Shown: one piece after another, positions 10,177 to 28,321 of the stretch | Layout: every line of letters begins with the position of its first letter | How positions within the stretch are numbered: position 1 is the first letter of the stretch | Assembly (NCBI RefSeq): GCF_000429825.1 | Contig: NZ_AUCP01000035.1 | Span: 1 to 64,000, forward strand | Length of the DNA stretch: 64,000 bases | Reading direction: 5' to 3' | Origin: Cohnella thermotolerans DSM 17683 | GTDB taxonomy: Bacteria > Bacillota > Bacilli > Paenibacillales > Paenibacillaceae | Notes under the pieces: generated by a model | Database searches by the model: none | Told to the model about the DNA's origin: nothing | What the model saw: only the letters and a program-made list of their open reading frames with translations | Made by a program: the position numbers and the translations under genes

Positions 10177-12087
10177 CTATGAAGAATATTTGCTTTTATA
10201 GTGAGCGAGCGCGAACAGCGGCCAAATGTACCGGTAGCTGTAATAGTGGGAATAGAATATGCCCGGAAGACCCGCGCCGGTCGGATAGGCGGCGAACCGG
10301 CTCTCTTCCTGGAGCAGACCGATCAGCCGGCGAATTCCCCTGTCGATCGTCGGAGTCGGCGCCTCATGAACCGCGATGAGCGCATCGAGCGCCCAAGCGG
10401 TCTGCGAAGGCGTGCTCTCCTCAAGCGGAATATAGCGCATCTGCCGATCGCTGTCGCAGGATTCTCCCCAGCCCCCGTCGGCCTGCTGAATGTCCGTCAG
10501 CCACTGCGCTCCCGCGCGTACGGCCGGATGATCGGCTCGGATGCCCGCCGCCGCAAGCCCTGTTAAAGCGGCCCATGTGCCGTAGATGTAGCAGACGCCC
10601 CACCGCCCGTACCAGGAGCCGTCCTTTTCCTGATGGCCGATGAGCCAATCCGTTCCTCTGCGGATGAACGCGTGACCCATTCCCAGGCCTGCGTAATTCC
10701 CCAAGAATTCCAGCGTTCTCCCTGTCAAATCCGACGTCGACGGATCGATGGCCGACGACTTGGCTTCCCGGAGCGGAAGCAGGACAAGAATCTGGCGGTC
10801 CGTGTTCTTCTCGAACGCCGGCCACCCGCCGTCATCGTTCTGCATCGACAGCAGCCAGTGCAAGCCGCGGTTCCACGCTTCCCGATAGGCCGGGTCGGCT
10901 CCCGCTTGGCGCTTGATCGCTCTCAAAGCGGCCGTCGTATCGTCCACGTCCGGATTGATCGTGTTCGTATCCGAGAATCCCCACCCTCCGGGAACCGCGC
11001 TTGGATTATGCACCAGCCAATCCCCCGGTTTGCGATGCTGCTTGGCCAATAGATACGCGTTCGCGCGGCGGATCATCGGACTGTTCGCGTCGGCTCCCGC
11101 TTCCTGCAGCGCGCTGCTCAACAGGGCCGTGTCCCATACGGTGGAAGGAGCGTTCTGCAGGAAAATCGGTTGGGCGCCGCGGCAGACCATGGCCCGTAGG
11201 CCTTGAACGGCGTTGCGGATGACCGCGTGGCGTTTATCGTAGCCGATGGCGAGAAGCGCGAGAATCATCAGGAACGTGCTGGTAGCGTAACTGTACAACG
11301 TTCCGTCCGCTTCGATCCGCTCCAGCATGTAGCGCTCCGCTCGCCTGACGGCTTCCTCGTGAAGCTGCGACGGTATCCCGTTCAGACGTTCTATACCTTT
11401 GCCGATCTGCTCCAGCAGCGATTGAAGCTCACGGGGGTGACCGCGGCCAAGCGCCGGGTCGAACCAAGACGGCGGCTCCCGCGATCGGTCTCCGGCCAGC
11501 TCGGACAGATCGGGGGACGTCTTCGTCCGGAGGGAGAACCGCCGGTCGGCGAGCAGCAGAGCCGGAATCATATGAACGCGTGCGTATCCGGAAAAGTCGA
11601 AGACGCTGAGCGGAAATTGGGAAGGCAGCAGCAGAAATTCCAAGGGGATCTTCAGGGAACGCGGCCATGGATATTGGCCCGTCGAGGCCAGCATGACTTT
11701 GGTCAGCAATCCGCCGATCTGCTGAATCCCGCCCTTAGCCAGAATGAACGCCCGGGCTTTGACCAGCGGAGGATCTGCATCCCGGCTGTAGCCGGAATAG
11801 AGAAGCGCGTAATAACATTCGACCGTGGCGGACAAATTGCCTTCCCGCTCATCGGGATAAGCTCTCCAGGCACCGTCCGCGTACTGAGTCGCCAGCAGCC
11901 GGTCGCGGAGCTGGCGGATCAGGGGTTCATCCGCAATCTCCAACGTCCTCAGCGCGATGATCATATAGGCGTCCGTTAGCACCGCGTTTTCGTAGCAGAA
12001 TCGCCAGGAGCCGTCATCCGATTGCATGCGGGACAAGGATTCCGACAACCGTCCGACGGCTTGATCGACTTGGCCGCTCAGATTCAT
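10177..12087 (-). CDS. sqhC: Squalene-hopene/sporulenol-type terpene cyclase
   Basis: A 636-residue alpha-barrel cyclase. The catalytic DxDD motif is present as NPDVDDTTAA about two-thirds into the first domain region, and several QW repeats are visible (QSDDGSW, QNDDGGW, QEKDGSWYGRWG, QQADGGWGE). Length fits bacterial squalene-hopene cyclases and the B. subtilis SqhC enzyme, which cyclises tetraprenyl-beta-curcumene to sporulenol in spores. Which substrate is used here cannot be told from sequence. There is no squalene synthase or other isoprenoid gene nearby, so the precursor must be made elsewhere. The gene stands alone, divergent from a decayed cysteine synthase fragment. The protein is probably a monotopic membrane enzyme. 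Confidence 0.88.
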   Translation of the reverse strand: MNLSGQVDQAVGRLSESLSRMQSDDGSWRFCYENAVLTDAYMIIALRTLEIADEPLIRQLRDRLLATQYADGAWRAYPDEREGNLSATVECYYALLYSGYSRDADPPLVKARAFILAKGGIQQIGGLLTKVMLASTGQYPWPRSLKIPLEFLLLPSQFPLSVFDFSGYARVHMIPALLLADRRFSLRTKTSPDLSELAGDRSREPPSWFDPALGRGHPRELQSLLEQIGKGIERLNGIPSQLHEEAVRRAERYMLERIEADGTLYSYATSTFLMILALLAIGYDKRHAVIRNAVQGLRAMVCRGAQPIFLQNAPSTVWDTALLSSALQEAGADANSPMIRRANAYLLAKQHRKPGDWLVHNPSAVPGGWGFSDTNTINPDVDDTTAALRAIKRQAGADPAYREAWNRGLHWLLSMQNDDGGWPAFEKNTDRQILVLLPLREAKSSAIDPSTSDLTGRTLEFLGNYAGLGMGHAFIRRGTDWLIGHQEKDGSWYGRWGVCYIYGTWAALTGLAAAGIRADHPAVRAGAQWLTDIQQADGGWGESCDSDRQMRYIPLEESTPSQTAWALDALIAVHEAPTPTIDRGIRRLIGLLQEESRFAAYPTGAGLPGIFYSHYYSYRYIWPLFALAHYKSKYSS

Positions 12088-12543: not shown

Positions 12544-13923
12544 TTACGGCTCTCCGATCGTCGTCCGCAGCGTCTCGACCTTCTTGTTGATCGCGTCGGT
12601 CGCCTTGCGGATCGCCGAGTTCACATCCAGGCCGTTAATCGCCAGATCCTCGGCCGCCTGCGTCATCTCGTCGCCGATCTCCAGCTCGTACGGGCTCGTA
12701 TAGTGCTCCTGCAGCGGCTCGCCGACGAAGATGTTGGATACCGTCTTGCCTTGCAGCACCGGAACGTCCTTGCCGTAATCCGCATTCAGCGATTCGTCGT
12801 TAATCGCCGGTACGCGGCCGTTGCGGGACAGAATGTCCTGGCCTTCCTCCGACAGAATCTCGGCAATGACGTCGAACGCTTCATCCTTATGCTTCGACTT
12901 GCTGTTGATGGATAGCGTATGCACCTGCGCTTCTCTCGTCTTGCCGAGCTGATCCTCGAAGTTCGGCGCCGGCGCGAAGTCCCAGTCGAACTCGACGCCC
13001 TGCTGACGCAGCTCCTCGAGCGGTCCGACCATGTTGGCCAGCCAGGAGACGCGCATCGCGATCGTCTGGTCCTTCATGAACTGGTCGCGGCCGAAATTCC
13101 ACGTCTTGTCCGGGCCGACGTAGCCGGGAATCTCGAAGATCTTCTTCTGCAACTCGAACGTGCGCCGCCAATCCGGCGTATCGAGAGCGGCGTTGCCCGT
13201 CTGCCGGTCGACATACGGCAGGCCGAGCCCTTTGGCCAAGCCGGTCAGGTTGTCGACAGCGAGGCCGACATAGTGAACACCGTTCACCGTCCGCGTCAGC
13301 TTCTTCGCCAGCTCGAGCGTCTGATCCCACGTCATCTGCTCGCCCGTCGGATACGGCACGCCGAACTTGTCGAAGATGTCCTTGTTGTAATACAGCACGT
13401 GCTGGTTGGAGTTGTAGGGAATGGCGTAGATCTGGTCTCCTTTGCCCTTGGTCATGTCAAGCACGTAATTCCACAGGAACGGCTTGATCTTCGACGTATC
13501 GAAGTTGTGCGTCCGGATCAGCTCGCGCAGATCCTCGTAAGCGCCGGCCCGGATAATATCCTGGTGCGAGGAGGAGGACGAATAGATGATGTCCGGCGTA
13601 TAGGTGGACAGCACTTCCTCGTTGGTCGTCTGCGCAGCCGGCGTAATCCGTTCGATCGTCACGTTCGGATACTTCTTGTGAATCGGATCCGCGATCTCCG
13701 CTTTGAACTCGGTATCCGTGAACGTGCCGCTTGTGACGTACAGCGTCAGCGTCAACGGCTCGTCGCCGAGCTTCTTGTACGTCGGGGCGGCGGAAGCGGA
13801 ACCTGATGCGGCGGAATTGTCCGATCCCGATGCCGCCGGAGCGGCGCCCTCATTCTTGCCGGCACAGCCGGCCAGCAATCCGACCGCCGCCAGCGCACTA
13901 AGCGATAAAGCCCCTTTTCTCAT
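12544..13923 (-). CDS. Extracellular solute-binding lipoprotein (CUT1), last gene of the locus
   Basis: Binding protein with a signal peptide and lipobox LLAGC (lipid anchor at Cys20), a Ser/Ala/Gly linker and a mature domain with LTLTLYVTSG, DIIYSSSSS, GDQIYAIPYN and DQTLELAKKL, typical of family 1 sugar-binding proteins. I place the start at the ATG 13923 with GGTGA five bases upstream; GTG 13932 and TTG 13935 are alternatives in the same frame. It is the second binding protein of this locus and lies directly behind two permease genes, so it should serve the importer formed by 14087-15058 and 15074-15943. The gap of 163 bases from the permease allows a separate promoter, though I see no convincing one. 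Confidence 0.9.
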   Translation of the reverse strand: MRKGALSLSALAAVGLLAGCAGKNEGAAPAASGSDNSAASGSASAAPTYKKLGDEPLTLTLYVTSGTFTDTEFKAEIADPIHKKYPNVTIERITPAAQTTNEEVLSTYTPDIIYSSSSSHQDIIRAGAYEDLRELIRTHNFDTSKIKPFLWNYVLDMTKGKGDQIYAIPYNSNQHVLYYNKDIFDKFGVPYPTGEQMTWDQTLELAKKLTRTVNGVHYVGLAVDNLTGLAKGLGLPYVDRQTGNAALDTPDWRRTFELQKKIFEIPGYVGPDKTWNFGRDQFMKDQTIAMRVSWLANMVGPLEELRQQGVEFDWDFAPAPNFEDQLGKTREAQVHTLSINSKSKHKDEAFDVIAEILSEEGQDILSRNGRVPAINDESLNADYGKDVPVLQGKTVSNIFVGEPLQEHYTSPYELEIGDEMTQAAEDLAINGLDVNSAIRKATDAINKKVETLRTTIGEP

Positions 13924-14086
13924 AGTTGTCACCAATCCTTTTCCTATTGAATTAAGTAGATTTCTCTACGTCTCGCTTATACCGCGATGGAAGGCTTGCC
14001 CTGACTCCTCATTTCCGGCGACAATCATACAAAGAGCCGGCCGGCTGCCGATGCATCTTGATCACCTCCCCGTTGAACCGCATCCC

Positions 14087-15058
14087 TCACTCGACAATCC
14101 CCGTCCGTTCCACGCCTTCGATGAACCAGCGCTGGGCGAAGAAATACACGATCAGCAGCGGGAAAATAATGAGGAACGAGGACGCCATCTTGATCGCTTC
14201 CTGATACACCGACATCTCGCCCGCGCCTTCTGCGGCCGCCATCTCGGCGGCCACCCGCGCCAGCGTAATCGACAGCGGCACGTGCTCGGCGGTGAACATG
14301 AAAATCGACGGCAGGTAGAAGTCATTCCAGTTCCAGACAAAGGCGAACAGCACAACCACGACGATGACCGAACGGGAGAGCGGAAACATGACGCGGAAGA
14401 ACAGCCTGAAGGCGTTCGCCCCGTCGATGCGCGCAGCCTCGTCCAACTCCTTGGGCAAGGTCGAAAAGAACGAGCGATAGATGATGACGAACATCGCGCC
14501 CTTGAGCCCGTGACCGAAGATGGCCGGCACGATCATCGGCAGCACGGTGTCCATCCATCCGAAGCTCTTGAACAGCATGATCGTCGGCAAGATGACGACC
14601 TGCGGCGGCATAATGAACGTGAACAGCAGCATCGCGCCCCAGAAGCGCTTGAACGGAAAGTCCAGCCGCGCGAACGCGTAGCCCGCGACGGCGCACGAGA
14701 ACACTTGCAGCACGGAGACGGAGCCGGCCAGCGTCACGCTCAGGAGCAGGCTTCGGCCGTACTCCAGCATCTTGCCCGCCGTCTTCAGATGCCCGAGATA
14801 GATGGTCTTCGGCACCCAGATGACGGTCGGATCGAGAATGTTCTTCGCATCCTTGACCATCGTCGTCACCATGTACAGAATCGGCTTGAGATAGATGAAC
14901 GCGACGTTGATCAGCAGAATGTAGATGATGAGCTTGAACAGCAGGCCCTGATCGATCTCCCGGCCGACGATCCGGTAGCGGAGCCGTTGGAACGTTCGCA
15001 GCCAGGTGTCCCGGGAGCCGCTCCACGGGACGGGCTTGCCGATGGGGATTTTAGCCAA
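14087..15058 (-). CDS. CUT1 ABC transporter permease (MalG/LplC type)
   Basis: Membrane subunit of the second importer of the locus. An N-terminal cytoplasmic stretch of about 40 residues precedes the first membrane segment (LLFKLIIYILLINVAFIYL). The EAA loop reads LDEAARIDGANAFRLF followed by VMFPLSRS. The C-terminal IEGVERTGIVE is the usual MalG-type tail. Start is TTG with AAGGAGG nine bases upstream. The gene begins 15 bases after its partner permease. With 323 residues it is longer than a typical MalG because of the N-terminal part. Confidence 0.9.
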   Translation of the reverse strand: MAKIPIGKPVPWSGSRDTWLRTFQRLRYRIVGREIDQGLLFKLIIYILLINVAFIYLKPILYMVTTMVKDAKNILDPTVIWVPKTIYLGHLKTAGKMLEYGRSLLLSVTLAGSVSVLQVFSCAVAGYAFARLDFPFKRFWGAMLLFTFIMPPQVVILPTIMLFKSFGWMDTVLPMIVPAIFGHGLKGAMFVIIYRSFFSTLPKELDEAARIDGANAFRLFFRVMFPLSRSVIVVVVLFAFVWNWNDFYLPSIFMFTAEHVPLSITLARVAAEMAAAEGAGEMSVYQEAIKMASSFLIIFPLLIVYFFAQRWFIEGVERTGIVE

Positions 15059-15073
15059 TGTTCTCGCCTCCTT

Positions 15074-15943
15074 CTACCGGCGCGCGCCGGAGAGCGCCTT
15101 GTCTACCCGGCTGTAGAGCAGCAGCGTCAAGCCGACGAACAGCAGAATGATCGTAAAGTAGATCCACGCCAGCGCGCTGGAGCTGCCGTAGTTGGTCGTG
15201 TTGACCTTGCTCACGATCGGATTCGACGGGAAGGTGAACAGGTCGACGACCGTGTACATCAGATTCAGGAAAATGTAGGGCACGAGTCCCGGCAGCGTAA
15301 TTTTCCAGAACGTGTTCCACGGCCCGGAGCCGTCGATGCGGGAAGCCTCGTACATCGATGCCGACAGCGTCTGCCGGCCCGCCAGGAAGATCAGAATTTG
15401 CACGCCCGAATACCAGAGCACCAGCACGAACGAGCTCATCACCGTCGTGATCGGATCCGCCCATCCCGCCGGCACGTAATCCCGCAGATAGCCGTCAATG
15501 TTCAGCGACTGCAGCACCGTGAGCGAGCCTTCCCCCTGATTGATGAATTCCTGCACGATCTGCCCCGACGAGAAGATGACCGGCAGGAAGAAGATGACCC
15601 GGAACAGCGTCCTCCCCGGGAACCGCATGTTCAGCAGAATCGCCACCAGCAGCGAGAAGACGAGAATGATCGGAATCATCATGAGCGCCTGCTTCAGGAA
15701 CGGGATCAGATCCTCATAGAGGAGGCTGCCGTTGGCGATCAGAATTTCTTTGTAATTCTGGAAGCCGAGAAACGTATAGACGACGGAATGGACCGTAATG
15801 CGCACCTGGAAAAAGCTCATGTACAGCGAGTAGCCGAGCGGAAAAGCGACGAACGCCAGAAATCCGAACACCCACGGCGCGATGAACAGGGAGCCCTCGA
15901 TCTTCCGCTGCGTAGCGGCATGAAGCCGGCCTTTTCCCCTCAT
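15074..15943 (-). CDS. CUT1 ABC transporter permease (MalF/LplB type)
   Basis: Membrane subunit pairing with 14087-15058. The sequence starts with a basic segment, then GSLFIAPWVFGFLAFVAFP, and has the EAA loop YEASRIDGSGPWNTF followed by ITLPGLVP. Its ATG overlaps the TGA of the DUF5696 gene by four bases (15940-15943), so its translation depends on that gene. This tight coupling of a glycosidase-like exoprotein to a permease is a good sign that both handle the same glycan. Confidence 0.9.
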   Translation of the reverse strand: MRGKGRLHAATQRKIEGSLFIAPWVFGFLAFVAFPLGYSLYMSFFQVRITVHSVVYTFLGFQNYKEILIANGSLLYEDLIPFLKQALMMIPIILVFSLLVAILLNMRFPGRTLFRVIFFLPVIFSSGQIVQEFINQGEGSLTVLQSLNIDGYLRDYVPAGWADPITTVMSSFVLVLWYSGVQILIFLAGRQTLSASMYEASRIDGSGPWNTFWKITLPGLVPYIFLNLMYTVVDLFTFPSNPIVSKVNTTNYGSSSALAWIYFTIILLFVGLTLLLYSRVDKALSGARR

Positions 15944-18183
15944 GGCGTCTCCCCTCCCTTCACGATGGCGAAGTCCTGCGCCGGCACCTTCACGCTGCCG
16001 ACGTCATACGCCGACTTGCCGTAGTTGACGACGACGCGGTAGCCGCCCTCGTAGATCGTCTCTTTGACCTGCGGAGCCAGCGCGCGGTGGCCGACGATGA
16101 ATTTGTCCTGCACCGGCGCGAGCGCCTCGTCGGCCTTCCGGTACTCTTCGGTCAGCTCGGGCAGCCAATCCCGGCCGTTCATGCTGTAATACCAGGCGGA
16201 ATACGCGCCTTTCAGCCGGTCCGACGGCGCCGTCGTGAGCAGGTAAGTCGGGTATGCCCCGTATTCGATCATCCGCAGGAACTCCGTCCGCGACTCGTTG
16301 CGCAGGTTCGACCATTGGGACGTATAGGGGATGAGCCCGTGCAGCGCGATTTGTGCGAAAGGCACCGCCTCGTCGGTGAAGATGTCGTAGGAATCGTCGT
16401 CCGTCAGCAGCGGGATATGATCGATCAGATCATACGTATAGGCGTTGGCGTTCGACACGGCGACGGAGCCGAGCGTTTGCTTCGTCTGCTCGATCACCTG
16501 CCTCTGAATGCCGATCTCATCGGTGCGGCTCCCCCCGTAACGGCTGTTGAAGTCGGTGGTGAGCCGCTCGCCGATGCCGTTCTCGAAGCGGATGCCGTCC
16601 GCGCCGAGCTTCTTGAATTCCTTCAGATCGGAGGCCAGCGTCTTGCGGTAGAAGCCGGCGCTGACGAGCTTGGCGCCGTCCGGCGCCTCCAGCACATTCC
16701 CCGACAGGTCCCGCACGCCGTCCCGCCGCGACCAGAAGCCGTCGTCTCCGTTGTTGTTCTCCGTATAATTGGCGGTCAGGTAGACGGGAATGCCGAGCGT
16801 ATGCGCGAAGTCGATGAACGCCTTCATCCCCTTGCTGCCCCCGATCCGCGAATCGACGGGAAAATAACCGCCCTGCGTGCTGTAGCCGTCCTGCTGCCAG
16901 CCCGCGTACTGCACGACGATCCGATGAATGCCTTGATCGTAAATCTCTTGCAGCAGCCCCTTCGCCTCCGAGGTCGGCGTGGCCGTCATGTAGTCGTCCA
17001 GCAGCAGCCCTTTGCGAATGTCGCCGCCCATCAGATCCAGGTAGAACGGGATGTCGGACGGAACGTTCGCCAGCCGCTGCACCTTCTGTTCCTTCATTAG
17101 ATAGTTGCGGTAGACGCTGGCCATCCCGACGTAGCCGCTGTCTTCGCCGCTGAGCGGATAGTAGCGTACGGAACGGCGCGGGGATTCGAAGCGGTCCTCG
17201 CCGTACGTGTAGAAGCCCGCGTTCGTGCTGCGGCTGACGCTCTGGAAAAATCGCTTCCGGTACTGCCACTCCGCCGTGACCCAGTTGGACGTTCCGATCG
17301 CGCCGGACGGCGCCGCGAACACTTTGGCGAAGGCCGCCCCGTCCGTCACCACCGCCAGAAACCCTTGATCGCCGGACTTGAGTCCGAATACCGGCAGCAA
17401 GATGCGCTGTCTGTTCGGATCGTCCAGGTAGAAGGCCGCGTCGTCGCCGAAAATGCTGTAATTGTAGACCGATTGCGGCAGAATCCGCCCGGACTTGAAG
17501 CGGATCAGCGAGCCGGAGCCGTCCGGCACGAACAGATAGCCGTCCTGTCCCTTCGTCGCCTGCCCGCCGAACAGCGGGTACAGCTTGACATTCAGCAAGC
17601 TGTTGTCTCCTTCGGCAAGCCCCTGATCCAACAGCGCCGTCTCTACGTAATCGTCGTGCAGCGTCACCTCCACCGGCAGCTTGAAGCCTCCCGCCGGAAG
17701 CACGAACGTCGCGGTGAAGCCGTCCGGCTTCGTCTGGAAGTTCTCTACATAACCTTTCTCATCGACAAGCCCCACCGTCTTCGAGGCCGCCTTGTAGTTC
17801 GACAGATTCGCGTACTCGACAATGACGGGCGAGAGCAGATTGTTTTTCCAGACGCCGGTCAGCTGCTCTTGCTTCCAGTCCTCCGGATCCGGATAAGAAC
17901 GCCAGACTTGCCCGGTCGTCTTGCTGACGACCTGGAAGTGCGCCGTCGCCGGATCGGCCAGAAGCGTCAGCGACGCCGATTCCGCCGCCTTGCGGAAGCT
18001 TCCCTCGTTCGGCAGCTGCGGCCGGAACAGCGCGGCGCCCGCCGGTGTCTCGATCGCGGCCGACGCGGCGGCCTCTTCGGTGCCCGGCGTCTGGGCGACC
18101 CGGAGCGCGAGCCAGCCGATTGCCGCCAGTACGATGGCTCCGGCCAGAAGAGGAACGATGCGGCGCCAAGGCCATCGGTTCAT
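15940..18183 (-). CDS. DUF5696-type, glycosidase-like exoprotein
   Basis: 747 residues. One N-terminal hydrophobic segment (IVPLLAGAIVLAAIGWLALRV, no lipobox) anchors or exports the protein, so the bulk lies outside the membrane. A beta-rich N-terminal half (about residues 60-340) is followed by a barrel-like part with MASVYRNYLM, IVVQYAGWQQDGY, GIPVYLTANYTENN, GADGIRFENGIG and VAVSNANAYTYDLID. The alternation of beta strands ending in acidic or aromatic residues resembles retaining glycoside hydrolases built on a TIM barrel, and the DUF5696 family in Paenibacillaceae has this length. Candidate acidic catalysts lie in FENG and DDSYDIF. Activity is inference. The ATG follows AGGAGG and overlaps the NHL/YIP1 gene end by four bases. 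Confidence 0.75.
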   Translation of the reverse strand: MNRWPWRRIVPLLAGAIVLAAIGWLALRVAQTPGTEEAAASAAIETPAGAALFRPQLPNEGSFRKAAESASLTLLADPATAHFQVVSKTTGQVWRSYPDPEDWKQEQLTGVWKNNLLSPVIVEYANLSNYKAASKTVGLVDEKGYVENFQTKPDGFTATFVLPAGGFKLPVEVTLHDDYVETALLDQGLAEGDNSLLNVKLYPLFGGQATKGQDGYLFVPDGSGSLIRFKSGRILPQSVYNYSIFGDDAAFYLDDPNRQRILLPVFGLKSGDQGFLAVVTDGAAFAKVFAAPSGAIGTSNWVTAEWQYRKRFFQSVSRSTNAGFYTYGEDRFESPRRSVRYYPLSGEDSGYVGMASVYRNYLMKEQKVQRLANVPSDIPFYLDLMGGDIRKGLLLDDYMTATPTSEAKGLLQEIYDQGIHRIVVQYAGWQQDGYSTQGGYFPVDSRIGGSKGMKAFIDFAHTLGIPVYLTANYTENNNGDDGFWSRRDGVRDLSGNVLEAPDGAKLVSAGFYRKTLASDLKEFKKLGADGIRFENGIGERLTTDFNSRYGGSRTDEIGIQRQVIEQTKQTLGSVAVSNANAYTYDLIDHIPLLTDDDSYDIFTDEAVPFAQIALHGLIPYTSQWSNLRNESRTEFLRMIEYGAYPTYLLTTAPSDRLKGAYSAWYYSMNGRDWLPELTEEYRKADEALAPVQDKFIVGHRALAPQVKETIYEGGYRVVVNYGKSAYDVGSVKVPAQDFAIVKGGETP

Positions 18184-20414
18184 CGGATCGCCACCTCCTG
18201 GTAGATGGAATAGATAAAGTCGATCAGTTCGCCGCTCAGGCTGACGAAGATAAAGATCAGCACCGCGATCATCGCCAGCGTCAGCAGCGAGAACAGCATG
18301 TTCAGCAGCGCTTCGCCGACGTTGTAGTTTTGAATGCCCTGCACCATCCAGAAAAATTGCAGCGCCGTCCAGACGAGCATCGCCAGCTGCAGGAAGTCGA
18401 AGATCGGCTTCTCGCTCAGCGTCAGCGCATGCGACAGAATCGTCAGCGGAACGCCGAGGGCAATGATCGGCAGCAGCGCGTAACAGCTGCCGTAGAACAC
18501 GTCGCGGAAGCGGCCTTCGCCCCGCATGAGCGAACTGACCAGATAGTTCGAGACGACCCAGCCGAGCCAGATGCCCGCGAATTGCACGAGCAGCGGTCCC
18601 AGATTGACCCCTTTGTATACGGCGGTGTTAAACGTGAAGCTCGTCCCCGCCTCGATCCACGAGAACGAGGCGACGGCGGCCGCCAGCACAATCAGGCTGC
18701 TGACCGCCCCGGCCTTGCCCTGATAGCGGATGGCGTGATAGCCGTCGATCGGATGCTTCACCAGGTAGCGGACGTGATTGAGCTGCAGGATCAGCTTGTG
18801 CCGCGGCCGCAGCCGCTCCCGCAGGCGGTCCCGCCATTCCCGGTTGCGCGTGAAGCGGTGGAGCAGGAAGGCCGCGAGCAGCACGCCGATCGCCAGATCC
18901 ATCCAGAATGCGAAGTGCCGCTGGAACCAGACGAGCCGGAGCTGCCAGAAGGCGTCGGAATAGCCTTTGTTCACGCCCGCCTTGTAGAACAGCTCCTTCG
19001 CCCGCGAGTAGTCCTCGCGTTCGTAGGCGGCTTTGGCTAGGCCGATCAGCGCCGGCGTGTAGTAGGCGTTCTGCCGGTACACCTCCGCCCAGAGCGGCTC
19101 GCTCTCCGCATAGCGGCCGTCGCGGGTCAGGCTGTTCGCCTGATGAACCAGCGAGCCGAACTCGGTCAGCTGCAGCCGCTGAATGAGGCCGTTCACGCTG
19201 TCGAGCACGAGCAGATCGCCGTCTGCGGTCGTCGCGATCGCGGCTGGCGTGTCGACGATGCCGAGCTTCGGGGAGCCTTCGGCGTGCGTGCCGTTCCAGA
19301 AGAAGAGCAGGCTGCCGTCGCCGTCATACTGACTGATCGTGCCGGTGACCGCGTCGATCACCGTGAAGTTGCCGTCACGGTCGACGGCGATATCCTGCAG
19401 TTGAACCGCCGGCACCCAAGCGGGCGCCGCCGGCGCGACGCTCGAGGAGGACGAAGCGGACGAGGATGTCGTCTGCACCGGAGCGGGCGGCGACAGGTCG
19501 CCGTAATATTCGCCGAACTGCTTTTTCTTTTTCTTCTTGACTTCGAATTCGCCCCCGGTCTCGAGCTGATTGAGGCCGGCGATGTTGAACTTCTTGACCT
19601 GCTCGTTGCGGATGTCCTTCGTCACGGTGTAGATGAAGCCGTCGTCGTCGATCGCGGTATTGACGATCGCCCCCGGCAGCTTGCTCAGCTCGCGCTGGTA
19701 CATCCGCCGCGTATACACGAGCCGCTTGAAGGCATCGAATAGCGTGAAGGCGACCTTGTTGGCGCCGAAGAACGTCTGGAAGCGGCCTTCCGGGTCCAGC
19801 TCCAGCAGCCCTTGGAACGCGCCGAGCGTCGTCACGTACAGGAATCCGCGTTTGTCCACGACCAGCTTCGTCGGCTGGTACTGGAACGAATCCGGCAGAT
19901 AGCTCGATTCCGGACGGCCGTATTCGCGCAGCAGCCTGCCCTCCGGGTCCAGCTTGACGACGCGCCGGTTGCCGGTGTCGGCCACGTAAATGTCGCCGTT
20001 ATCGTCCACGAACAGTCCGCTCGGGCTGCTGAGCGGGCTCTCCTTCACCGCAAACGTTGCGAGCAGGTTCCCCTGCCGATCCAGCTTCACGATCCGGTTG
20101 TTGCCCGTGTCCGCAATGTAGATCCGGTCCTGCCGGTCGACGAACAGGTCCTGCGGCTGGCTCAGTCCGGCGGGAAGCGGCTCCTCGCCGGCCGCGGCCT
20201 GCCCGCTGTCCGCACTCTCGCCGCCGGCTCCCAGATTAAAGCCGATCACGCCGGCCGGCCGGTAAGCGGACTGAATTTGCATATATTGCTGATAGGCGTC
20301 TTTGTAATAGGTCGCATAAGGGGAATATGCGTCCGCCGCGGCCGGCTTCAGCGCCGCTGTCAAAGCCGCCGCCAGAACCGCCGCCGAGACGCGCAACCAC
20401 CACCGACTGTTCAT
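18180..20414 (-). CDS. Secreted beta-propeller (NHL repeats) fused to YIP1-like membrane domain
   Basis: 744 residues. A cleavable-looking signal peptide (to about residue 29) is followed by NHL repeats, for example LFVDRQDRIYIADTGNNRIV and LFVDDNGDIYVADTGNRRVV, forming an extracellular propeller. A lysine run (KKKKKK) and a Ser-rich linker interrupt it. A short TPR-like segment (AESEPLWAEVYRQNAYY) leads to one membrane segment, then a cytoplasmic part and about five more membrane segments resembling the YIP1 family. NHL propellers bind proteins or carbohydrates; a scaffold role on the cell surface for the importers is possible. I prefer ATG 20414 with GGGGAGGG upstream over the longer frame. 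It lies 19 bases after a permease gene. Confidence 0.8.
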   Translation of the reverse strand: MNSRWWLRVSAAVLAAALTAALKPAAADAYSPYATYYKDAYQQYMQIQSAYRPAGVIGFNLGAGGESADSGQAAAGEEPLPAGLSQPQDLFVDRQDRIYIADTGNNRIVKLDRQGNLLATFAVKESPLSSPSGLFVDDNGDIYVADTGNRRVVKLDPEGRLLREYGRPESSYLPDSFQYQPTKLVVDKRGFLYVTTLGAFQGLLELDPEGRFQTFFGANKVAFTLFDAFKRLVYTRRMYQRELSKLPGAIVNTAIDDDGFIYTVTKDIRNEQVKKFNIAGLNQLETGGEFEVKKKKKKQFGEYYGDLSPPAPVQTTSSSASSSSSVAPAAPAWVPAVQLQDIAVDRDGNFTVIDAVTGTISQYDGDGSLLFFWNGTHAEGSPKLGIVDTPAAIATTADGDLLVLDSVNGLIQRLQLTEFGSLVHQANSLTRDGRYAESEPLWAEVYRQNAYYTPALIGLAKAAYEREDYSRAKELFYKAGVNKGYSDAFWQLRLVWFQRHFAFWMDLAIGVLLAAFLLHRFTRNREWRDRLRERLRPRHKLILQLNHVRYLVKHPIDGYHAIRYQGKAGAVSSLIVLAAAVASFSWIEAGTSFTFNTAVYKGVNLGPLLVQFAGIWLGWVVSNYLVSSLMRGEGRFRDVFYGSCYALLPIIALGVPLTILSHALTLSEKPIFDFLQLAMLVWTALQFFWMVQGIQNYNVGEALLNMLFSLLTLAMIAVLIFIFVSLSGELIDFIYSIYQEVAIR

Positions 20415-20433
20415 GCTGCGCCCTCCCCTTGTC

Positions 20434-21282
20434 TCATTTGATGCCGGAATGGGCCATCGTATCGATGACTTTCCGCTGCAGAAGGATAAAGAACACGAGA
20501 TTGGGCAGGAGCACAATCAGCGTCGCCACCGCCGCCGCTCCCTGACGGGCGACATTGTTGGCCAGGTTGCTCGTCAGCGTCGACAGGAAGAACGGGAACG
20601 TCTTCATGTCGTCGTCCTGCATAAAATAGGCGGATGTCTCCAGATTGCTCCACGAGCCTTGGAAGGCCAGAATGGCGACCGTCGCGACGGCCGGCATGCA
20701 GACCGGCACGGCGATCTTCAGGAACAGCCCGAATTCGGTCGCGCCGTCGATGCGCGCCGCTTCGAGCAGCGAATTCGGAATCTGCTCCATGAACTGCTTG
20801 AGCAGGAAGACGCCGACCGGCAGCGCAAGCAGCGGCAGGATGTGGCCCGGATACGTGTTCATCAGCCCCAGGCGGCTGACGACCAGGTAGCGCGGAATCT
20901 GCACCACCTCCGGCGCGAACATCAGCATCAGCACGATCGTCGAGAAGACGAGCTGCCGGCCGGGGAACGGATGCTTGGCGAGCGCGTAGCCGCACATCGC
21001 GCTGATGATCGTCGACAGCACGACCGTCAGCGCGGAGACGACGATGCTGTTGAACAGGTAGCGCGAGAGCGGAATGAGCGAATTCGACGTCACCTGCATC
21101 AGCTCGACAAAGTTCTGCGTCGTCGGATGCTTCACCAGAAATTCGGGCGGATAGACGAACAACTCGTCGTACGGCTTGAACGCATGGCTGATGATAAAGA
21201 CGATCGGCAGCAGCATGAACGCCGCGAAGAGCAGCATCAGGACGACAAACGATATGCGCGACAGCGAAAAACGGAGTCTCAT
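20434..21282 (-). CDS. CUT1 ABC transporter permease (MalG type)
   Basis: Membrane subunit of the first importer in the locus. Six membrane segments are apparent; the EAA loop is LEAARIDGATEFGLFLKIAVP, and the end reads VIDTMAHSGIK as expected for MalG-like proteins. The start has a weak GAGGG-containing site that overlaps the end of the preceding permease gene (two bases between stop and start), so the two halves are coupled. It is followed closely by the propeller protein. Confidence 0.9.
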   Translation of the reverse strand: MRLRFSLSRISFVVLMLLFAAFMLLPIVFIISHAFKPYDELFVYPPEFLVKHPTTQNFVELMQVTSNSLIPLSRYLFNSIVVSALTVVLSTIISAMCGYALAKHPFPGRQLVFSTIVLMLMFAPEVVQIPRYLVVSRLGLMNTYPGHILPLLALPVGVFLLKQFMEQIPNSLLEAARIDGATEFGLFLKIAVPVCMPAVATVAILAFQGSWSNLETSAYFMQDDDMKTFPFFLSTLTSNLANNVARQGAAAVATLIVLLPNLVFFILLQRKVIDTMAHSGIK

Positions 21283-21284
21283 GC

Positions 21285-22181
21285 CTATTCATCCCTCGTT
21301 CCGAACAATCTCCAGCTCAGCCGGTTGGAAGCGTACATCAGCAGCAGGAGAAAGACCGAAATCGCGGCGGCGTAACCCATCTCGTAACGAATGAAGCCGA
21401 AGTCGTGAATGTGGTTGACGATCAGGTTGCCCCCGTACTGCGGCGTCGGATTCTGCCCCGACAGCTCCACGCCGATCTGCCCGGTCTTCAGCGTCGTGAC
21501 GATGGCCATGACGCAGCCGAACAGCATTTGCGGCTTCATCGAAGGGATGGTCAAATACCAGACCTCCTGCAGCCGGCTGCGGATGCCGTCGATGCGGCCG
21601 GCCTCGTACAGCTGCGGGTCGACGTTGAGAATGCCCGCCAGCATCGCCAGAAAGCCGACGCCCATGCTCGACCAGAGCGAGACGACGATCATCGAGCCCA
21701 TGAGCAGATGCGGATCGGTCACCCACAGCTTCGGAACGGAGATCAGGCCCTGGTTCAGCAAGAAGCTGTTCAAATAGCCGATGCGGTCGCCCGACAGCAG
21801 CGGCAGCCAGATGATCGTCATCGCCGTGCCGGCCGTCAGCGACGGCGCGTAGACGGCCAGCGCCACCCACTTGCGCAGCCGCTTGCCGAGCAGGGAGATG
21901 AGCCAGGCCAGAACGAATCCCGCCGCGTAGCCGCCCGGTCCGACGACGATGGCGAACTTGAACGTGTTCGGCAGCGCGTACTGCAGGAACAGCAGATCCT
22001 GAGAGATCAAATATTGGAAGTTGCTCCAGCCGATGAACCGCGGCGGTTCGATCCCGTTGTAGTACGTAAAGCTGAGCCCCGCCGTCATGACGACCGGAAT
22101 GACGATAAAGGCCAGGAAGACGAGCATGAACGGAGCGATGAACAGATACGAGACGCGATATGACCAGATTCTACTCCACAT
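21285..22181 (-). CDS. CUT1 ABC transporter permease (MalF type)
   Basis: Partner of 20434-21282. First membrane segment YLFIAPFMLVFLAFIVIP; EAA loop YEAGRIDGIRSRLQEVWYLT followed by IPSMKP, a slightly altered form with Gly in place of the second Ala. The ATG overlaps the end of the large binding-protein gene by 11 bases (22171-22181). Length 298 residues is normal. Confidence 0.9.
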   Translation of the reverse strand: MWSRIWSYRVSYLFIAPFMLVFLAFIVIPVVMTAGLSFTYYNGIEPPRFIGWSNFQYLISQDLLFLQYALPNTFKFAIVVGPGGYAAGFVLAWLISLLGKRLRKWVALAVYAPSLTAGTAMTIIWLPLLSGDRIGYLNSFLLNQGLISVPKLWVTDPHLLMGSMIVVSLWSSMGVGFLAMLAGILNVDPQLYEAGRIDGIRSRLQEVWYLTIPSMKPQMLFGCVMAIVTTLKTGQIGVELSGQNPTPQYGGNLIVNHIHDFGFIRYEMGYAAAISVFLLLLMYASNRLSWRLFGTRDE

Positions 22182-25158
22182 AAGGATCGATTCCTTCCCA
22201 CGGCTTGCGGATCACCGGAATGTCCAGCCGCTTCAACCGGTTGCCGCCGGCGTCGACGAAGCCGAATTCCTGCTGCTTGCGGCGAAGCTCCCGGTTGATG
22301 TCACGGTTGGCTTGCTCCAGAGAAGCGCGGTAGTTGACCTTGCTCACGACCGTCCGGTTCCAGGCGTTGTTCAGCTCTCTCGTCAGGAAGTAGCCGCCGG
22401 GCACGTTCGGAATGTCTTTGTACCAGCGCCACTGCTCGAGAATGACGCGGGCGTCCTCCTTCTTCCAGGGAAGCCGGGAGAACGCTTCGACATTGGCCGT
22501 GTTCCAACGGAAGGCGACGCCGTTGATCGCCTCCAGATCCTCTCCGAACGCCTGCTGGACATCGGCCGACGTCCACCATTGCAGGAACCGCCACGCTTCG
22601 TCCTTCTTGTTCGAGCGCTTGAACATGACGTCCGTCTGCTGGCCTCCGCCCGCCCAATGGGTGACCGTCCCGTCCGCCTGGCGGACGCCGGGGATCACCG
22701 CGATGCCCCAGCGGCCGTTCAGTTCGGGCGCGGCCGCGGCCAGCTGCACGTACGTGTTGTAGTCGGAGATGCCGATCGGCATCGTGCCGTCGCGGAAGTG
22801 CTCGTAGAAGCTCGGCACCTGCTGCTCGACGGCGTACGTCGTGAACAGATCCGTCCACCGCTTGAACGCGCTGAACGCCGCGGGCGTGTCGAGCGCCGTC
22901 TTCAAGCCGTCCTGATCGTAAAACTCGACATTGTTGTTGTAGAAATATTGCGAGAATTGCGTCGGATCGACATAGAAGTTCATCGCGTTCTGCTGCAGCG
23001 TCGGCAGCATCGCGTACACGTCGTCCCACGTCTGAGGCACCTTCAGGCCGAGGCGGTCCAGAATGTCCTGACGGTAGAAGAGCACTTGGAACGACTGCGT
23101 CTCCGGCAGCGCGTAATAGCCGCCGTCGTAATACAGCGGGAGCCAGGAGCCCGGGCTGAACCGTTTGTACGTGTCGTCGAAGCCGCTCATCTCCGACAGA
23201 TCCTGCAGGCTGCCGCGAATGGCCAGGTCGACCGGCATATCCTGCGTCAATCCGAGCGCAAGGTCGGGTTGAACGCCGGCCGCGTTGGACAGCAGCAGCA
23301 GCTCCTGATTGGCGATCAGGTTCACCTTGACCTGAATGCCGGTGGCTGGCGTAAACTCTTCGTCCGCCAGCTGCTGCAGCTGGTCGACGTAGTCGCGGCC
23401 GCGCCGCACCCAGACGTTCAGCTTCGTGTCGTCCGTCTTCGCGATGCTGTCCCGGCTGTTGAACGAATAGGCGAAGTTTTGCAGACTGCCGGTCACCCGG
23501 TTCCAGATGGACGCCTTCATGCTCGGGAACTTGGCGTCCTTCGGCGCGATATACAGCTCGTCGAGCTGCAGCGCCTGATCCAGCAGCGAGTCGGCTGACA
23601 CATTCAGCTTCTCTCGGATCGCCGTAATCTCGTCCGTGTTGTACGGAATATCCTCCGGTTTCTTTAGAATCGTACGGATGTCCTTGGCGCCCGCCTTCAG
23701 CGCTTGACTGACGGCGTCCGAACCGCCGTTGATCCGCACGGAATCGTCCGCCAGCCGATCCATTCGTTCCGCCAGCTCCTGCAGCTTGCCGGGCAGCTCC
23801 GGATAATCCCGCTCCGGCACCCACGTCCGGTTGCGGTCGATGACCGCTCCGACTAGCCCGCGAAGGTCCCAGTTCACGGAATCGAGATCGTCGGACAGAT
23901 GCTGAATCCCTTCCAGCACCGGTTGCACGGGTGCATGGGTGACCGCCAGCGAGATTTGGTGCGTCCCCTTTGTCAGATAAACCAGATAGGGTTTGCCGTC
24001 GCCGTCGGCGATCACCTTGCCCTTCCAACTCGCGGTATAGGGAAATGCGTAGGCTTCGAATTCCCGGAACGGCACCCGGCCGTCGATCCGGATCGTGCGG
24101 AACGACGTCTTCTGCGACACGAGATTTTGCAGCATGCGGAACGCGAACTTGTACTCGCCGTCGGCCGGCACCTCGAACGTCCACGTGATTTCCTGATTTT
24201 GTTCCACCCATCTTGTCCCGCCGACGGTGTTGTAGGTAATTCTCCCTTTCGCGCGGGGCACGCTGCGCGGATCCCGGTCCGAGAACAGCTTGATGGCGGT
24301 GTCGTTCTTGTATGTAAAATCTTCGGCCTGGATTGTCTGCGCTTTGCCTTGCGACCGCTGCGCTTCCGGCGTCTGCTCCGGATACCCGGCGGAGACTTCG
24401 GCATAGGATGCAACCGGCTTGCTCGGCGCCAGATCGAACCGCTCCAGCGCAACGGGCTCGTTGCCGGAGAAGCGAATGACATGCTTGCCCTGCGTGAAAT
24501 ACCATTGCAGCGGTTCGGAATAACCGCCGGCCGCGTCGAGCAGCGGCTTCACGCTCCAATCCGACACCTCTTCGGAGCGCGGCCGGATCTGGTCGCCGTC
24601 GGCATTCTTCAGGATTGGACGATCGTCCTTCCAGAGACGGTACAGCGCGGTTGAGGAAGATTCTTCGAACTGGCGCTCCCCGTCGATCGAGACGTCCCAC
24701 AGAATCGGTCCCGTGCCTTCTCCGGCGATCGGTTCGTAGGAGACGTCGATCTCGTACAGTGCGCTCTCCGGCACGCTCGCCTCGTACTCCACCCAGTTCT
24801 CGTTCGAGGAGCGCCACAGCAGCACTCCCGACTTGCCCGCGTAGTCGCCGATCGTCAGCTTCGCGGCATCCGAGACGCGATGCGGCTGCCCCGCGTCGAC
24901 CGACACCGTCTGCCGGGCGCCGGCGATCCCCTTCGCTTGCCACTCGAGCTTCTTATCCGCATAAGAGGGATCCCTATGGATGGAAGTCTCCGAAGGAGCA
25001 ACGGCGGCCTGCGCCTGCCGGACGGACCCCGCCGCGGCATCGCCGCCCGTATCCGCTGGGCCGCCGGATTCGGAGAAGCCGAGCTGCGACGGAATGACGA
25101 AGATCAGAGCGGCGGCCGGGACAAGAGCGCAAGCTTTCTGCCACAATCGAATATTCAA
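22171..25158 (-). CDS. 995-residue binding protein with N-terminal carbohydrate-binding-like modules
   Basis: A composite exoprotein. Residues 1-30 form a signal sequence without a lipobox Cys. Two beta-sandwich-like modules follow (roughly 45-230 and 265-400), with phrases such as WVEYEASVPESALYEIDVSY and later ITWTFEVPADGEYKFAFRML that match galactose-binding-like/CBM6-CBM35 folds. A helical stretch (about 400-540) leads to a family 1 sugar-binding-protein domain (from about 560) with QPDLALGLTQDM, YALPETQSFQVLFYR, GTMPIGISDYNTY and AWRFLQWWTS. Normal binding proteins are 400-550 residues. Start is TTG 25158 with GGAAGGAGAGG upstream. It comes right after the ATPase gene and before two permeases. 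I infer that the extra modules hold the polymer near the transporter. Confidence 0.85.
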   Translation of the reverse strand: MNIRLWQKACALVPAAALIFVIPSQLGFSESGGPADTGGDAAAGSVRQAQAAVAPSETSIHRDPSYADKKLEWQAKGIAGARQTVSVDAGQPHRVSDAAKLTIGDYAGKSGVLLWRSSNENWVEYEASVPESALYEIDVSYEPIAGEGTGPILWDVSIDGERQFEESSSTALYRLWKDDRPILKNADGDQIRPRSEEVSDWSVKPLLDAAGGYSEPLQWYFTQGKHVIRFSGNEPVALERFDLAPSKPVASYAEVSAGYPEQTPEAQRSQGKAQTIQAEDFTYKNDTAIKLFSDRDPRSVPRAKGRITYNTVGGTRWVEQNQEITWTFEVPADGEYKFAFRMLQNLVSQKTSFRTIRIDGRVPFREFEAYAFPYTASWKGKVIADGDGKPYLVYLTKGTHQISLAVTHAPVQPVLEGIQHLSDDLDSVNWDLRGLVGAVIDRNRTWVPERDYPELPGKLQELAERMDRLADDSVRINGGSDAVSQALKAGAKDIRTILKKPEDIPYNTDEITAIREKLNVSADSLLDQALQLDELYIAPKDAKFPSMKASIWNRVTGSLQNFAYSFNSRDSIAKTDDTKLNVWVRRGRDYVDQLQQLADEEFTPATGIQVKVNLIANQELLLLSNAAGVQPDLALGLTQDMPVDLAIRGSLQDLSEMSGFDDTYKRFSPGSWLPLYYDGGYYALPETQSFQVLFYRQDILDRLGLKVPQTWDDVYAMLPTLQQNAMNFYVDPTQFSQYFYNNNVEFYDQDGLKTALDTPAAFSAFKRWTDLFTTYAVEQQVPSFYEHFRDGTMPIGISDYNTYVQLAAAAPELNGRWGIAVIPGVRQADGTVTHWAGGGQQTDVMFKRSNKKDEAWRFLQWWTSADVQQAFGEDLEAINGVAFRWNTANVEAFSRLPWKKEDARVILEQWRWYKDIPNVPGGYFLTRELNNAWNRTVVSKVNYRASLEQANRDINRELRRKQQEFGFVDAGGNRLKRLDIPVIRKPWEGIDPYVE

Positions 25159-25185
25159 TGTTGTCCTCTCCTTCCAGACGGAGGT

Positions 25186-26295
25186 CTAGTCCGCGAACCT
25201 CACGCCGGTGTCCGGGTGGAAAAACAGCATTTTCAGCGAGTCGATGCCGAGACGGACTTTGTCGCCGGGTTCGAAGCGGACGGAAGGACTGACGCGGGCC
25301 GTGAGCAGCTGATCCTGGCCGATGTCGAGGTAGATGAACCGGTCGGCGCCCATCAGCTCCGTGAACCGGTACGTTCCGGTGACGACCGCGTCGGAGAACA
25401 GCGCTTCGAGGCTGATGTTCTCGGGACGGATGCCGAGCAGCACCTGCCGATTCACCTGCCCGTGCTTGCGCAGCAGCTCGGCGTTCGACTCGTGAATTGC
25501 GATGCGCAGCCGCGAGGTGAGGAATTCAAGCCCTCCGAGCGCATTCTCCTGGATGCGGCCGCTAATCAGATTGATCTGCGGCGAACCGATAAAACTGGCC
25601 ACGAACGTATTGCTCGGCAGCGTATAGATGCGCTCCGGCGTATCGATCTGCTGGATAACGCCTTCCTTCATGACGACGATTCGGTCGGCCATCGTCATCG
25701 CCTCCACTTGATCGTGCGTCACATAGATGAAAGTCGTCTCCAGGCTCTGATGCAGCTTGATGATCTCCATCCGCATCGCAACCCGCAGCTTGGCGTCCAG
25801 GTTCGACAGCGGTTCGTCCATCAGGAACAACTTCGGATTGCGCACGATCGCCCGGCCGATCGCCACGCGCTGCCGCTGGCCGCCCGACAGCTGACGGGGC
25901 TTGCGGTGCAGGTAGGATTCAATCTCCAGAATGCGGGACGCCTTCTTGACGGCAAGCTCGATCTCGTATTTGGGCAGCTTGCGCATGCGCAGCCCGAAGG
26001 CGATATTTTCAAAGACGCTCATGTTCGGGTACAGCGCGTAGTTCTGGAACACCATGGAGATGTCGCGGTCCTTCGGGGGCAAATGGTTGACCAGTTGATC
26101 GTCGATATAAATCTCGCCTTCCGTAATGTCCTCCAGCCCGGCGATCATGCGCAGCATGGTCGATTTGCCGCAGCCGGACGGACCGACGAACACGATAAAT
26201 TCCTTGTCTCGGATCTCCAAGTTGAAATCCTTCACGACCGGATGTTTGTCCTTGCCGTAGCGCTTATAAATGTGGTCGATTCGAATATTCGCCAT
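25186..26295 (-). CDS. CUT1 ABC transporter ATPase (MsmX/UgpC type)
   Basis: 369-residue ATPase: Walker A GPSGCGKST, Q-loop MVFQNYALYPNMSVFEN, signature LSGGQRQRV, Walker B LFLMDEPLSNLD, H-loop VTHDQ. The C-terminal region (from about 240) is the TOBE/regulatory domain with IGSPQINLI and GIRPENISL. Proteins of this type energise several sugar importers in one cell. It heads a gene string with four permeases and two binding proteins and no other ATPase, so it probably serves both importers and perhaps the two other CUT1 systems in this window that also lack an ATPase. Its transcript has a long leader with a terminator (26330-26393). Confidence 0.95.
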   Translation of the reverse strand: MANIRIDHIYKRYGKDKHPVVKDFNLEIRDKEFIVFVGPSGCGKSTMLRMIAGLEDITEGEIYIDDQLVNHLPPKDRDISMVFQNYALYPNMSVFENIAFGLRMRKLPKYEIELAVKKASRILEIESYLHRKPRQLSGGQRQRVAIGRAIVRNPKLFLMDEPLSNLDAKLRVAMRMEIIKLHQSLETTFIYVTHDQVEAMTMADRIVVMKEGVIQQIDTPERIYTLPSNTFVASFIGSPQINLISGRIQENALGGLEFLTSRLRIAIHESNAELLRKHGQVNRQVLLGIRPENISLEALFSDAVVTGTYRFTELMGADRFIYLDIGQDQLLTARVSPSVRFEPGDKVRLGIDSLKMLFFHPDTGVRFAD

Positions 26296-26329
26296 AGAAT
26301 TCCGCTATCTCCCTTGTCGTCCACGACGC

Positions 26330-26393
26330 AAAAAAAACGGAGACGCTCGGCGGGATTTAAGGGAATCCCTGCCGAATGTCTCCGTTCGAACGG
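26330..26393 (-). promoter_or_regulatory. Leader attenuator upstream of the MsmX-type ATPase gene
   Basis: Minus strand: the perfect palindrome CCGTTCGAACGG (26382-26393) overlaps by four bases a long terminator hairpin, ACGGAGAC...GTCTCCGT (26337-26385) followed by eight T (26330-26337). The terminator ends 35 bases before the ATPase start. The order tetraloop hairpin, GGAGAC, terminator matches the leaders at 4651, 9392 and 31066, but the hairpin stem is CCGT/ACGG rather than CCAG/CTGG. Confidence 0.7.
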
Positions 26394-26480
26394 TCGCTTG
26401 TCGTTATTGCGGCCTTGCGGCCGGTGGAAACGAATTCCTAATAAAACCGATTAACTTGGTCTGCTTTATGATCGGGTCTT

Positions 26481-26510
26481 ACTATAACAATCCCTTTTCC
26501 CATTTGTCAA
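26481..26510 (-). promoter_or_regulatory. Promoter of the ATPase-led CUT1/DUF5696 gene string
   Basis: TTGACA (26505-26510) and TATAGT (26481-26486) with an 18-base spacer, about 190 bases upstream of the ATPase start. TAGGAATT, also seen in other leaders here, lies downstream at about 26433-26440. Confidence 0.8.
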
Positions 26511-26841: not shown

Positions 26842-26887
26842 CCGGTCAACCGGATTCATGGCGTTGCCGCCACGGGTCCGGTTTTTT
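26842..26887 (+). promoter_or_regulatory. Leader hairpin plus terminator before the monooxygenase operon
   Basis: CCGG-TCAA-CCGG (26842-26853) overlaps the 5' arm ACCGGA of a terminator (26849-26882) ending TCCGGT and six T. This has the same layout as the other leaders: a 4-bp stem with a 4-base loop just ahead of and overlapping the terminator. The sequence is more divergent. The terminator lies 67 bases before the GTG start. Confidence 0.55.
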
Positions 26888-26953
26888 GCCGTCTCCCGGG
26901 CATGTTGCAAGCCGATGGTCCGTACCATGCACAAACCGAAGGAGAGATGTAAA

Positions 26954-28294: not shown

Positions 28295-28321
28295 CCGAAC
28301 CGTTCGAACGGAGTGAAGCAG

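Follow-up and report, generated by a model that had tools for sequence, protein, structure and literature searches.

A conserved Cohnella gene cassette as a candidate compound CUT1-type importer with a GH129-fold protein at its centre

What keeps two pairs of sugar permeases, a beta-propeller and a large protein of glycosidase-like fold together in a single run of genes? The question is raised by a 64,000-nucleotide stretch of Cohnella thermotolerans DSM 17683 (contig NZ_AUCP01000035.1, positions 1 to 64,000; hereafter the window), in which nine co-directional genes occupy the minus strand from 26295 down to 12544. A Pfam/NCBIfam scan of the open reading frames (ORFs) identified one UgpC-type ATPase, two binding proteins, two CUT1 permease pairs, a protein that joins an NHL propeller to a Yip1 domain, and a DUF5696 protein; for each of the nine, a plausible ribosome-binding site precedes one candidate start. 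This is the inventory that an earlier, sequence-only reading of the DNA had proposed for these coordinates, and the four-base overlaps that it reported – between the NHL-Yip1 and DUF5696 genes (18180-18183), and between DUF5696 and the permease F2 gene (15940-15943) – are present. Our analysis leads us to suggest, with a probability of about one half, that the cassette encodes one compound CUT1-type ATP-binding cassette (ABC) importer, with DUF5696 as a heavy-chain subunit and the Yip1 and NHL domains as assembly parts.

Evidence that these genes belong together came firstly from their order in relatives. We fetched 160 neighbourhoods: 40 through propeller hits and 40 through DUF5696 hits (20 + 20 in each case, hand-picked from the hit lists, the DUF5696 set from the high-scoring listed hits), and 80 that were the best of at least 579 confirmed relatives in a related-locus search. 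Six repeat loci (L091, L093, L111, L123, L150 and L164) were dropped before counting, after which no two DUF5696 proteins were more than 97% identical; with the window itself this gave 155 loci for comparison, 118 of them (19 + 19 + 80) selected through DUF5696. The full order – large binding protein, permease F, permease G, NHL, Yip1, DUF5696, permease F, permease G – is complete in 137 of the 155. At the DUF5696-selected loci, DUF5696 is immediately preceded by NHL and Yip1 in every case (118 of 118), far more than chance; a permease F–G pair lies directly downstream in 114 of the 116 with room for it, and the large binding protein and first permease pair lie upstream in 105 of 111 with room. 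DUF5696 was likewise present at all 40 propeller-selected loci, some of which had been picked after a DUF5696 hit nearby was already seen. Gene order across these genomes thus shows a conserved core of large binding protein, permease pair 1, NHL propeller, Yip1 domain, DUF5696 and permease pair 2, and the co-conservation on which the sequence-only reading had staked its proposal is borne out. The 80 loci of the related-locus search comprise 66 from Bacilli, nine from Clostridia, two from Bacillota without a named class and three from Chloroflexota. That a block of seven or eight genes is kept across many soil and gut bacteria suggests that it is no accidental grouping but an as yet undescribed nutrient importer of several parts.

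Eighteen loci fall outside the strict order. A contig end cuts seven of them (L097, L152, L219, L231, L239, L240 and L244); in L103, L115, L169 and L200 the order is upset by broken ORFs or additional short ones; the cassette of L168 has its genes in another order, and in L245 two extra genes separate the last two permeases. The remaining five are half cassettes, weighed below. The four-base overlap between DUF5696 and permease F2 recurs in 88 of 153 loci and that between Yip1 and DUF5696 in 48 of 155. Among the 137 complete loci, NHL and Yip1 form a single fused gene in 87 and two adjacent genes in 50; on the tree this state changes six times by parsimony, three of the changes being forced by well-supported branches, and the fusion of neighbouring genes is commonly taken to mean that their products act together. 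Across the same 137 loci the seven parts have pairwise distances that correlate with each other at r 0.82-0.96, values that include shared ancestry, there being no control gene. The window's own genome carries a second cassette (L156, on contig C17), in which NHL and Yip1 are separate genes, followed by a binding protein and by AraC-type and LacI-type regulators.

Central to any account of the cassette is the DUF5696 protein itself (15940-18183, minus strand; 747 residues), which matches its Pfam profile with 591 bits over positions 2-612 of 612. An AlphaFold2 model built from 74 sequences (mean predicted local distance difference test score, pLDDT, 93.3; predicted template modelling score 0.91) has an N-terminal hydrophobic helix at residues 6-30, then an ectodomain that best matches glycoside hydrolase (GH) family 129: Foldseek E 6.3e-35 against ZgGH129/DagB, and Z 31.8 with 3.8 A over 563 residues against NagBb. 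Matches to GH129 lie at Z 29-32, those to GH101 and GH13 at about 21 and less, and the assignment holds by sequence profile (E 2.3e-12; hhalign probability 98.8). The likeness extends over the whole ectodomain. No GH13 ectodomain was found, 4F2hc sequence matches reaching only E 0.54-0.97. Of seven proteins scanned among weak DUF5696-profile hits elsewhere in the phylum, five proved to be of alpha-amylase type and two to be DUF6259 proteins; the latter (L251 and L252, about 660 residues) score 22.8 and 23.5 bits against a cut-off of 25.6, and DUF6259 is perhaps part of this fold group too.

The catalytic positions tell a different story from the fold. Among 19 GH129 relatives from the window's own family – 16 of them mutually close, with the catalytic columns, including that of D435, assigned by counting residues – the NagBb-type Asp is found in 19 of 19 and the NagBb-type Glu (the acid/base, which we take to be E478) also in 19 of 19. 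In DUF5696 the nucleophile column (NagBb D435 = ZgGH129 D486) is acidic in 56 of 154 proteins in the loop-length register (column 534) or in 6 of 154 in the hhalign register (column 532), the acid/base column 577 in 42, and both columns in 9; the window protein has Glu534 and Ser577. Neither the nucleophile nor the acid/base Glu of GH129 is therefore conserved, although the latter is absent from the active ZgGH129 too. For comparison, NagBb has two catalytic residues, of which ZgGH129 homologues retain only Asp435 (as Asp486), and each change at Asp486, Glu517, Glu531 or Asp202 inactivates ZgGH129 (PMC5698469, excerpted text). Residues on the cleft side are kept in DUF5696: W429 in 151, R553 in 150, N580 in 127 and Y582 in 140 of 154. 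DUF5696 differs from GH129 further in its N-terminal hydrophobic segment, present in 145 of the 153 proteins tested, and in its importer operon setting at every locus examined. Alignment and model together show a predicted GH129 glycosidase fold without the conserved GH129 catalytic pair. DUF5696 is probably a membrane-tethered, non-catalytic subunit; the lack of a conserved catalytic pair, together with the retention of cleft-side residues and of D248, points to a role in binding or as a scaffold.

The remaining parts are those of a CUT1 system: SBP_bac_1 binding proteins, BPD_transp_1 permeases with an EAA-type motif, and a MalK-type ATPase. The ATPase gene (25186-26295; 369 residues) opens the cassette, its product matching PRK11650 with 468 bits against a cut-off of 432 and carrying OB_MalK and TOBE_2 domains. 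Across all loci a cassette ATPase is found in 54 of 155, and none in the fetched stretch of the other 101, which presumably borrow a shared ATPase; MsmX of Bacillus offers a precedent. The first permease pair, F1 (MalF-like, 298 residues; 21285-22181) and G1 (MalG-like, 282 residues; 20434-21282), follows the large binding protein; an overlapping ORF at 20411-21292, considered for the first permease G, is in the wrong frame. The second pair lies beyond DUF5696, F2 (289 residues; 15074-15943) sharing with its start codon four bases of the DUF5696 stop, and G2 (323 residues) occupying 14087-15058. Intergenic gaps are short as far as G2; 151 bases then precede the last gene, for a lipoprotein-like SBP_bac_1 binding protein with the lipobox LAGC (12544-13923, the ORF reaching 13935). 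In the 137 complete loci the EAA-type motif is present in 136 F1, 118 G1, 105 F2 and 122 G2 permeases; being found in all four, it indicates that both pairs can couple to an ATPase. Carbohydrate is the putative cargo, to judge from the neighbours and from homology.

The large binding protein (22171-25158; 995 residues) carries some 570 extra N-terminal residues, modelled (AlphaFold2, pLDDT 88.1) as two beta-sandwiches and a helical bundle: a low-confidence helix at 3-21, the sandwiches at about 85-244 and 274-406, the bundle at 409-526 and the SBP_bac_1 domain at about 574-969. The latter is nearest to the Listeria beta-1,2-glucooligosaccharide-binding protein Lin1841 (E 8.9e-34; 5ysb at Z 37.3, tied with 3uor at 37.2). 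The fold search gave no relatives for the N-terminal 570 residues, the SBP_bac_1 domain filling the match list; a profile match to residues 431-519 of a cycloisomaltooligosaccharide glucanotransferase hints at a fold like that of carbohydrate-binding modules. A lipobox-like motif occurs in only 5 of 137 large binding proteins, so most must be held in another way. The NHL-Yip1 protein (18180-20414; 744 residues) most likely starts at ATG 20414, which has a ribosome-binding site and a signal-peptide-like start, rather than at TTG 20516, to which the longest ORF extends. It combines an NHL propeller (71.9 bits, cut-off 20), whose matches in the PDB are designed Pizza propellers and PknD, with a sub-threshold TPR-like match and a Yip1 membrane domain (PF04893; 33.2 bits, cut-off 28.6, residues 585-754).

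How might these parts work as one machine? We infer that the cassette proteins form a membrane complex. The large binding protein would catch a long or branched glycoside and pass it to permease pair 1, the propeller serving as its extracellular docking ring; the lipoprotein binding protein would feed pair 2; the Yip1 domain would join the two pairs, and one ATPase would power both. DUF5696, held by its N-terminal helix, would be the heavy-chain subunit that steadies the permeases, with the incoming glycan cradled in its retained cleft. The substrate would be set by the flanking enzymes, which vary among loci.

Each element of this scheme has a known counterpart. With CUT1 importers of the MalFGK2 type, and with that of Lin1841, the cassette shares a binding protein, a MalF/MalG-like pair with the EAA-type motif and a MalK-type ATPase; it differs in having two permease pairs tied to constant non-importer proteins, and in the N-terminal extension of its large binding protein. 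Subunits with glycosidase-like ectodomains are known from heteromeric amino-acid transporters as the heavy chains 4F2hc and rBAT, and human rBAT has a catalytic triad that is not fully kept in all rBAT orthologues (PMC8537225, excerpted text). These SLC3 proteins, like DUF5696, possess a single membrane helix plus a TIM-barrel ectodomain that resembles a glycosidase, and are tied to a transporter – a partnership that for DUF5696 is putative. They differ in that their fold is GH13 and not GH129, that they serve animal SLC7 carriers and not ABC importers, and that human rBAT keeps its triad: the likeness would be one of working, not of kinship. For the Yip1 domain the parallel is YknW of Bacillus, a Yip1 protein with a modulating role in the assembly of the ABC exporter YknXYZ (PMC4887032, excerpted text). 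There too a bacterial Yip1 protein acts on ABC transporter assembly, as we suppose for the cassette, whereas YknWXYZ is an exporter with a MacB-like permease, and the excerpt mentions neither a propeller nor a glycosidase-fold subunit. The bolder proposal – a new class of ABC importer, with two permease pairs set around a pseudo-enzyme 'heavy chain' and a Yip1/propeller scaffold, convergent with 4F2hc/rBAT – we put forward as a tentative one, and doubtful. Within the collection of papers searched there was none on DUF5696, none joining Yip1 with NHL, an importer or Paenibacillus, and none matching PDB entry 8RZG.

What, then, is transported? Downstream of relatives' cassettes we scanned the 57 longest of 131 proteins of at least 500 residues (325 have at least 300), together with 118 of the 186 proteins of 300-519 residues, from L116 onward; upstream, 91 of 142 were scanned, chosen by size, 27 then being left out by hand. 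Counts of binding proteins are lower bounds, earlier-recognised ones having been removed. GH35/GLMA proteins make up 21 of the 57, many of these rows deriving from related Bacillaceae; the 118 mid-sized proteins include 15 of PF10091, at least 13 SBP_bac_1, seven GH26, five GH32 and three GH113, and the 91 upstream neighbours at least 35 SBP_bac_1 and 11 LacI. GH106, GH95, an arabinofuranosidase and RGL11 also flank cassettes. In Bacillaceae (L201, L203, L205-L207, L210, L211, L213 and L215) proteins of about 400-460 and about 800 residues follow the cassette; in L207 these are PF10091 and GH35, directly after it, which we presume may form a beta-1,2-glucan system. On this evidence the cassette resembles a module of general use and not a locus for wall recycling. 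The sequence-only reading had pictured a surface machine that binds, trims and imports a complex glycan, perhaps from the cell's own wall or matrix: binding and import fit the parts, as an interpretation; trimming sits badly with a GH129 fold that lacks a conserved catalytic pair, a shifted active site being conceivable; and a wall substrate goes unsupported because the flanking enzymes vary among relatives. Its remark that no pathway enzymes accompany the importer genes holds within 12544-26295 and fails just beyond.

There, about 560 bases upstream and divergent from the cassette, lie plus-strand genes for two monooxygenases of the luciferase family, one NtaA/DmoA-family and flavin mononucleotide-dependent (26858-28294; 478 residues), the other SsuD-like (28313-29548; 411 residues; 346 bits, below the curated cut-off of 510). 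All nine members of the window's clade (FastTree local support 100) have NtaA/DmoA-type genes adjoining the cassette, as do, overall, 12 of the 54 loci with a cassette ATPase and 0 of the 101 without; the gene is divergent from the ATPase in the window and in L171, its nearest relative by tree path, and downstream in the others. Among PDB entries the first protein is nearest YtnJ/MoxC and the second nearest SsuD, both known from organosulphur use. These flavin monooxygenases make a sulphur-bearing glycoside a possible, if weakly indicated, substrate in this clade, whereas an alpha-L-rhamnosidase gene after the L171 cassette points to a plant-type glycan instead. A sulfoquinovose pathway, considered from the SsuD-like monooxygenase, an aldo/keto reductase and the CUT1 importer, is not claimed: the monooxygenase scores higher with SsuD (293 bits) than with 7olf (140 bits), the reductase is generic, and a literature search on such a reading of the clade matched no paper. 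Further along, 30269-50880 has an organosulphur look, with two more NtaA/DmoA-type monooxygenases, an M20 peptidase, a nitroreductase, an SBP_bac_5 oligopeptide-type system and a sulfatase (32830-34170). On the other side, directly downstream of the cassette, lies a squalene-hopene cyclase gene (10177-12087, minus strand; 442.8 bits, cut-off 431.1). A tRNA scan found none.

Expression of the cassette may begin upstream of the ATPase gene, where a promoter-like site (TTGACA-18-TATAGT, the second hexamer preceded by TG) lies at 26481-26510 on the minus strand; a similar site is seen in L171. The leader that follows (26296-26480, minus strand) holds a strong terminator hairpin with a fold z of -4.2 and then T8 (26330-26386), the 5' arm of the hairpin overlapping the palindrome CCGTTCGAACGG. 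A role in attenuation is possible. Terminators just upstream of the ATPase were also found in L105-L108 and L171-L173 and not detected in L104; in L172 and L173 they come after an aldo/keto reductase gene and may do no more than terminate it. Searched against Rfam, neither the window nor the leader nor any of seven relatives gave a match.

Several observations tell against a single compound importer with a non-catalytic DUF5696. The nucleophile register is unsure: a loose window of 533-536 gives an acid in 105 of 154 proteins, and in the loose register an acid lies near the acid/base position in 61 and near both in 36. Four acids are kept among the 154 – D221 in 149, D248 in 147, D544 in 142 and E640 in 147 – and D248 aligns with ZgGH129 D202, which that enzyme requires. 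ZgGH129 lacks one NagBb catalytic acid yet is active, and GH129-like enzymes with partly different acids are known (PMC5698469, excerpted text). DUF5696 might then be an exo- or endo-glycosidase that is active through catalytic acids in new positions and trims the glycan at the membrane before import, as its complete GH129-like architecture and retained W429, R553, N580 and Y582 would allow. This we think unlikely, though a serious contender: the nucleophile Asp of NagBb, ZgGH129 and all 19 GH129 relatives is conserved in neither register, and the cassette adjoins enzymes for unlike glycans, hardly to be served by one specific hydrolase. The tether, too, is open to challenge, an AxA-like motif after the helix in 48 DUF5696 proteins making a cleaved signal peptide possible in some, and lysine and arginine being richer before than after the helix in only 112 of 145.

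The idea of one complex faces the further difficulty that genes inherited together also show synteny and correlated distances when their products form no complex. Five half cassettes (L154, L155, L157, L158 and L162) consist of NHL-Yip1-DUF5696 and one permease pair, the large binding protein and pair 1 being missing from the position just upstream, and in these loci pair 1 seems dispensable; L154 has a GH106-like protein upstream. Such loci, the duplication of binding proteins and permease pairs, and the 101 of 155 loci that presumably share an ATPase would suit two independent, co-transcribed CUT1 importers whose NHL, Yip1 and DUF5696 neighbours only aid the secretion or folding of surface proteins. 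We hold this improbable, since DUF5696 sits between the pairs and overlaps pair 2, and since the order is near-invariant from Bacilli to Clostridia and Chloroflexota while the outer genes change. Histidine kinases (7 of the 118 mid-sized downstream neighbours), nearby LacI or AraC regulators and the window's leader terminator could instead speak for a surface sensor in which NHL-Yip1-DUF5696 measures ligand or transport flux and signals; that is very improbable, the Pfam/NCBIfam scan having found no cytoplasmic signalling domain in the three, and the regulators not being constant partners.

If the bolder proposal holds, the cassette would represent a new importer class that could import larger or branched glycosides beyond the range of ordinary CUT1 systems. 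A complex, should it exist, would tie three little-explained protein families to one function, directly testable, and would make a second example of a transporter subunit that has come from a glycosidase fold. DUF5696 scores above cut-off in 96 of the 148 family genomes searched, and single genomes hold eight or more matches; given that breadth, the cassette may be a main nutrient route of these bacteria that present annotation does not see.

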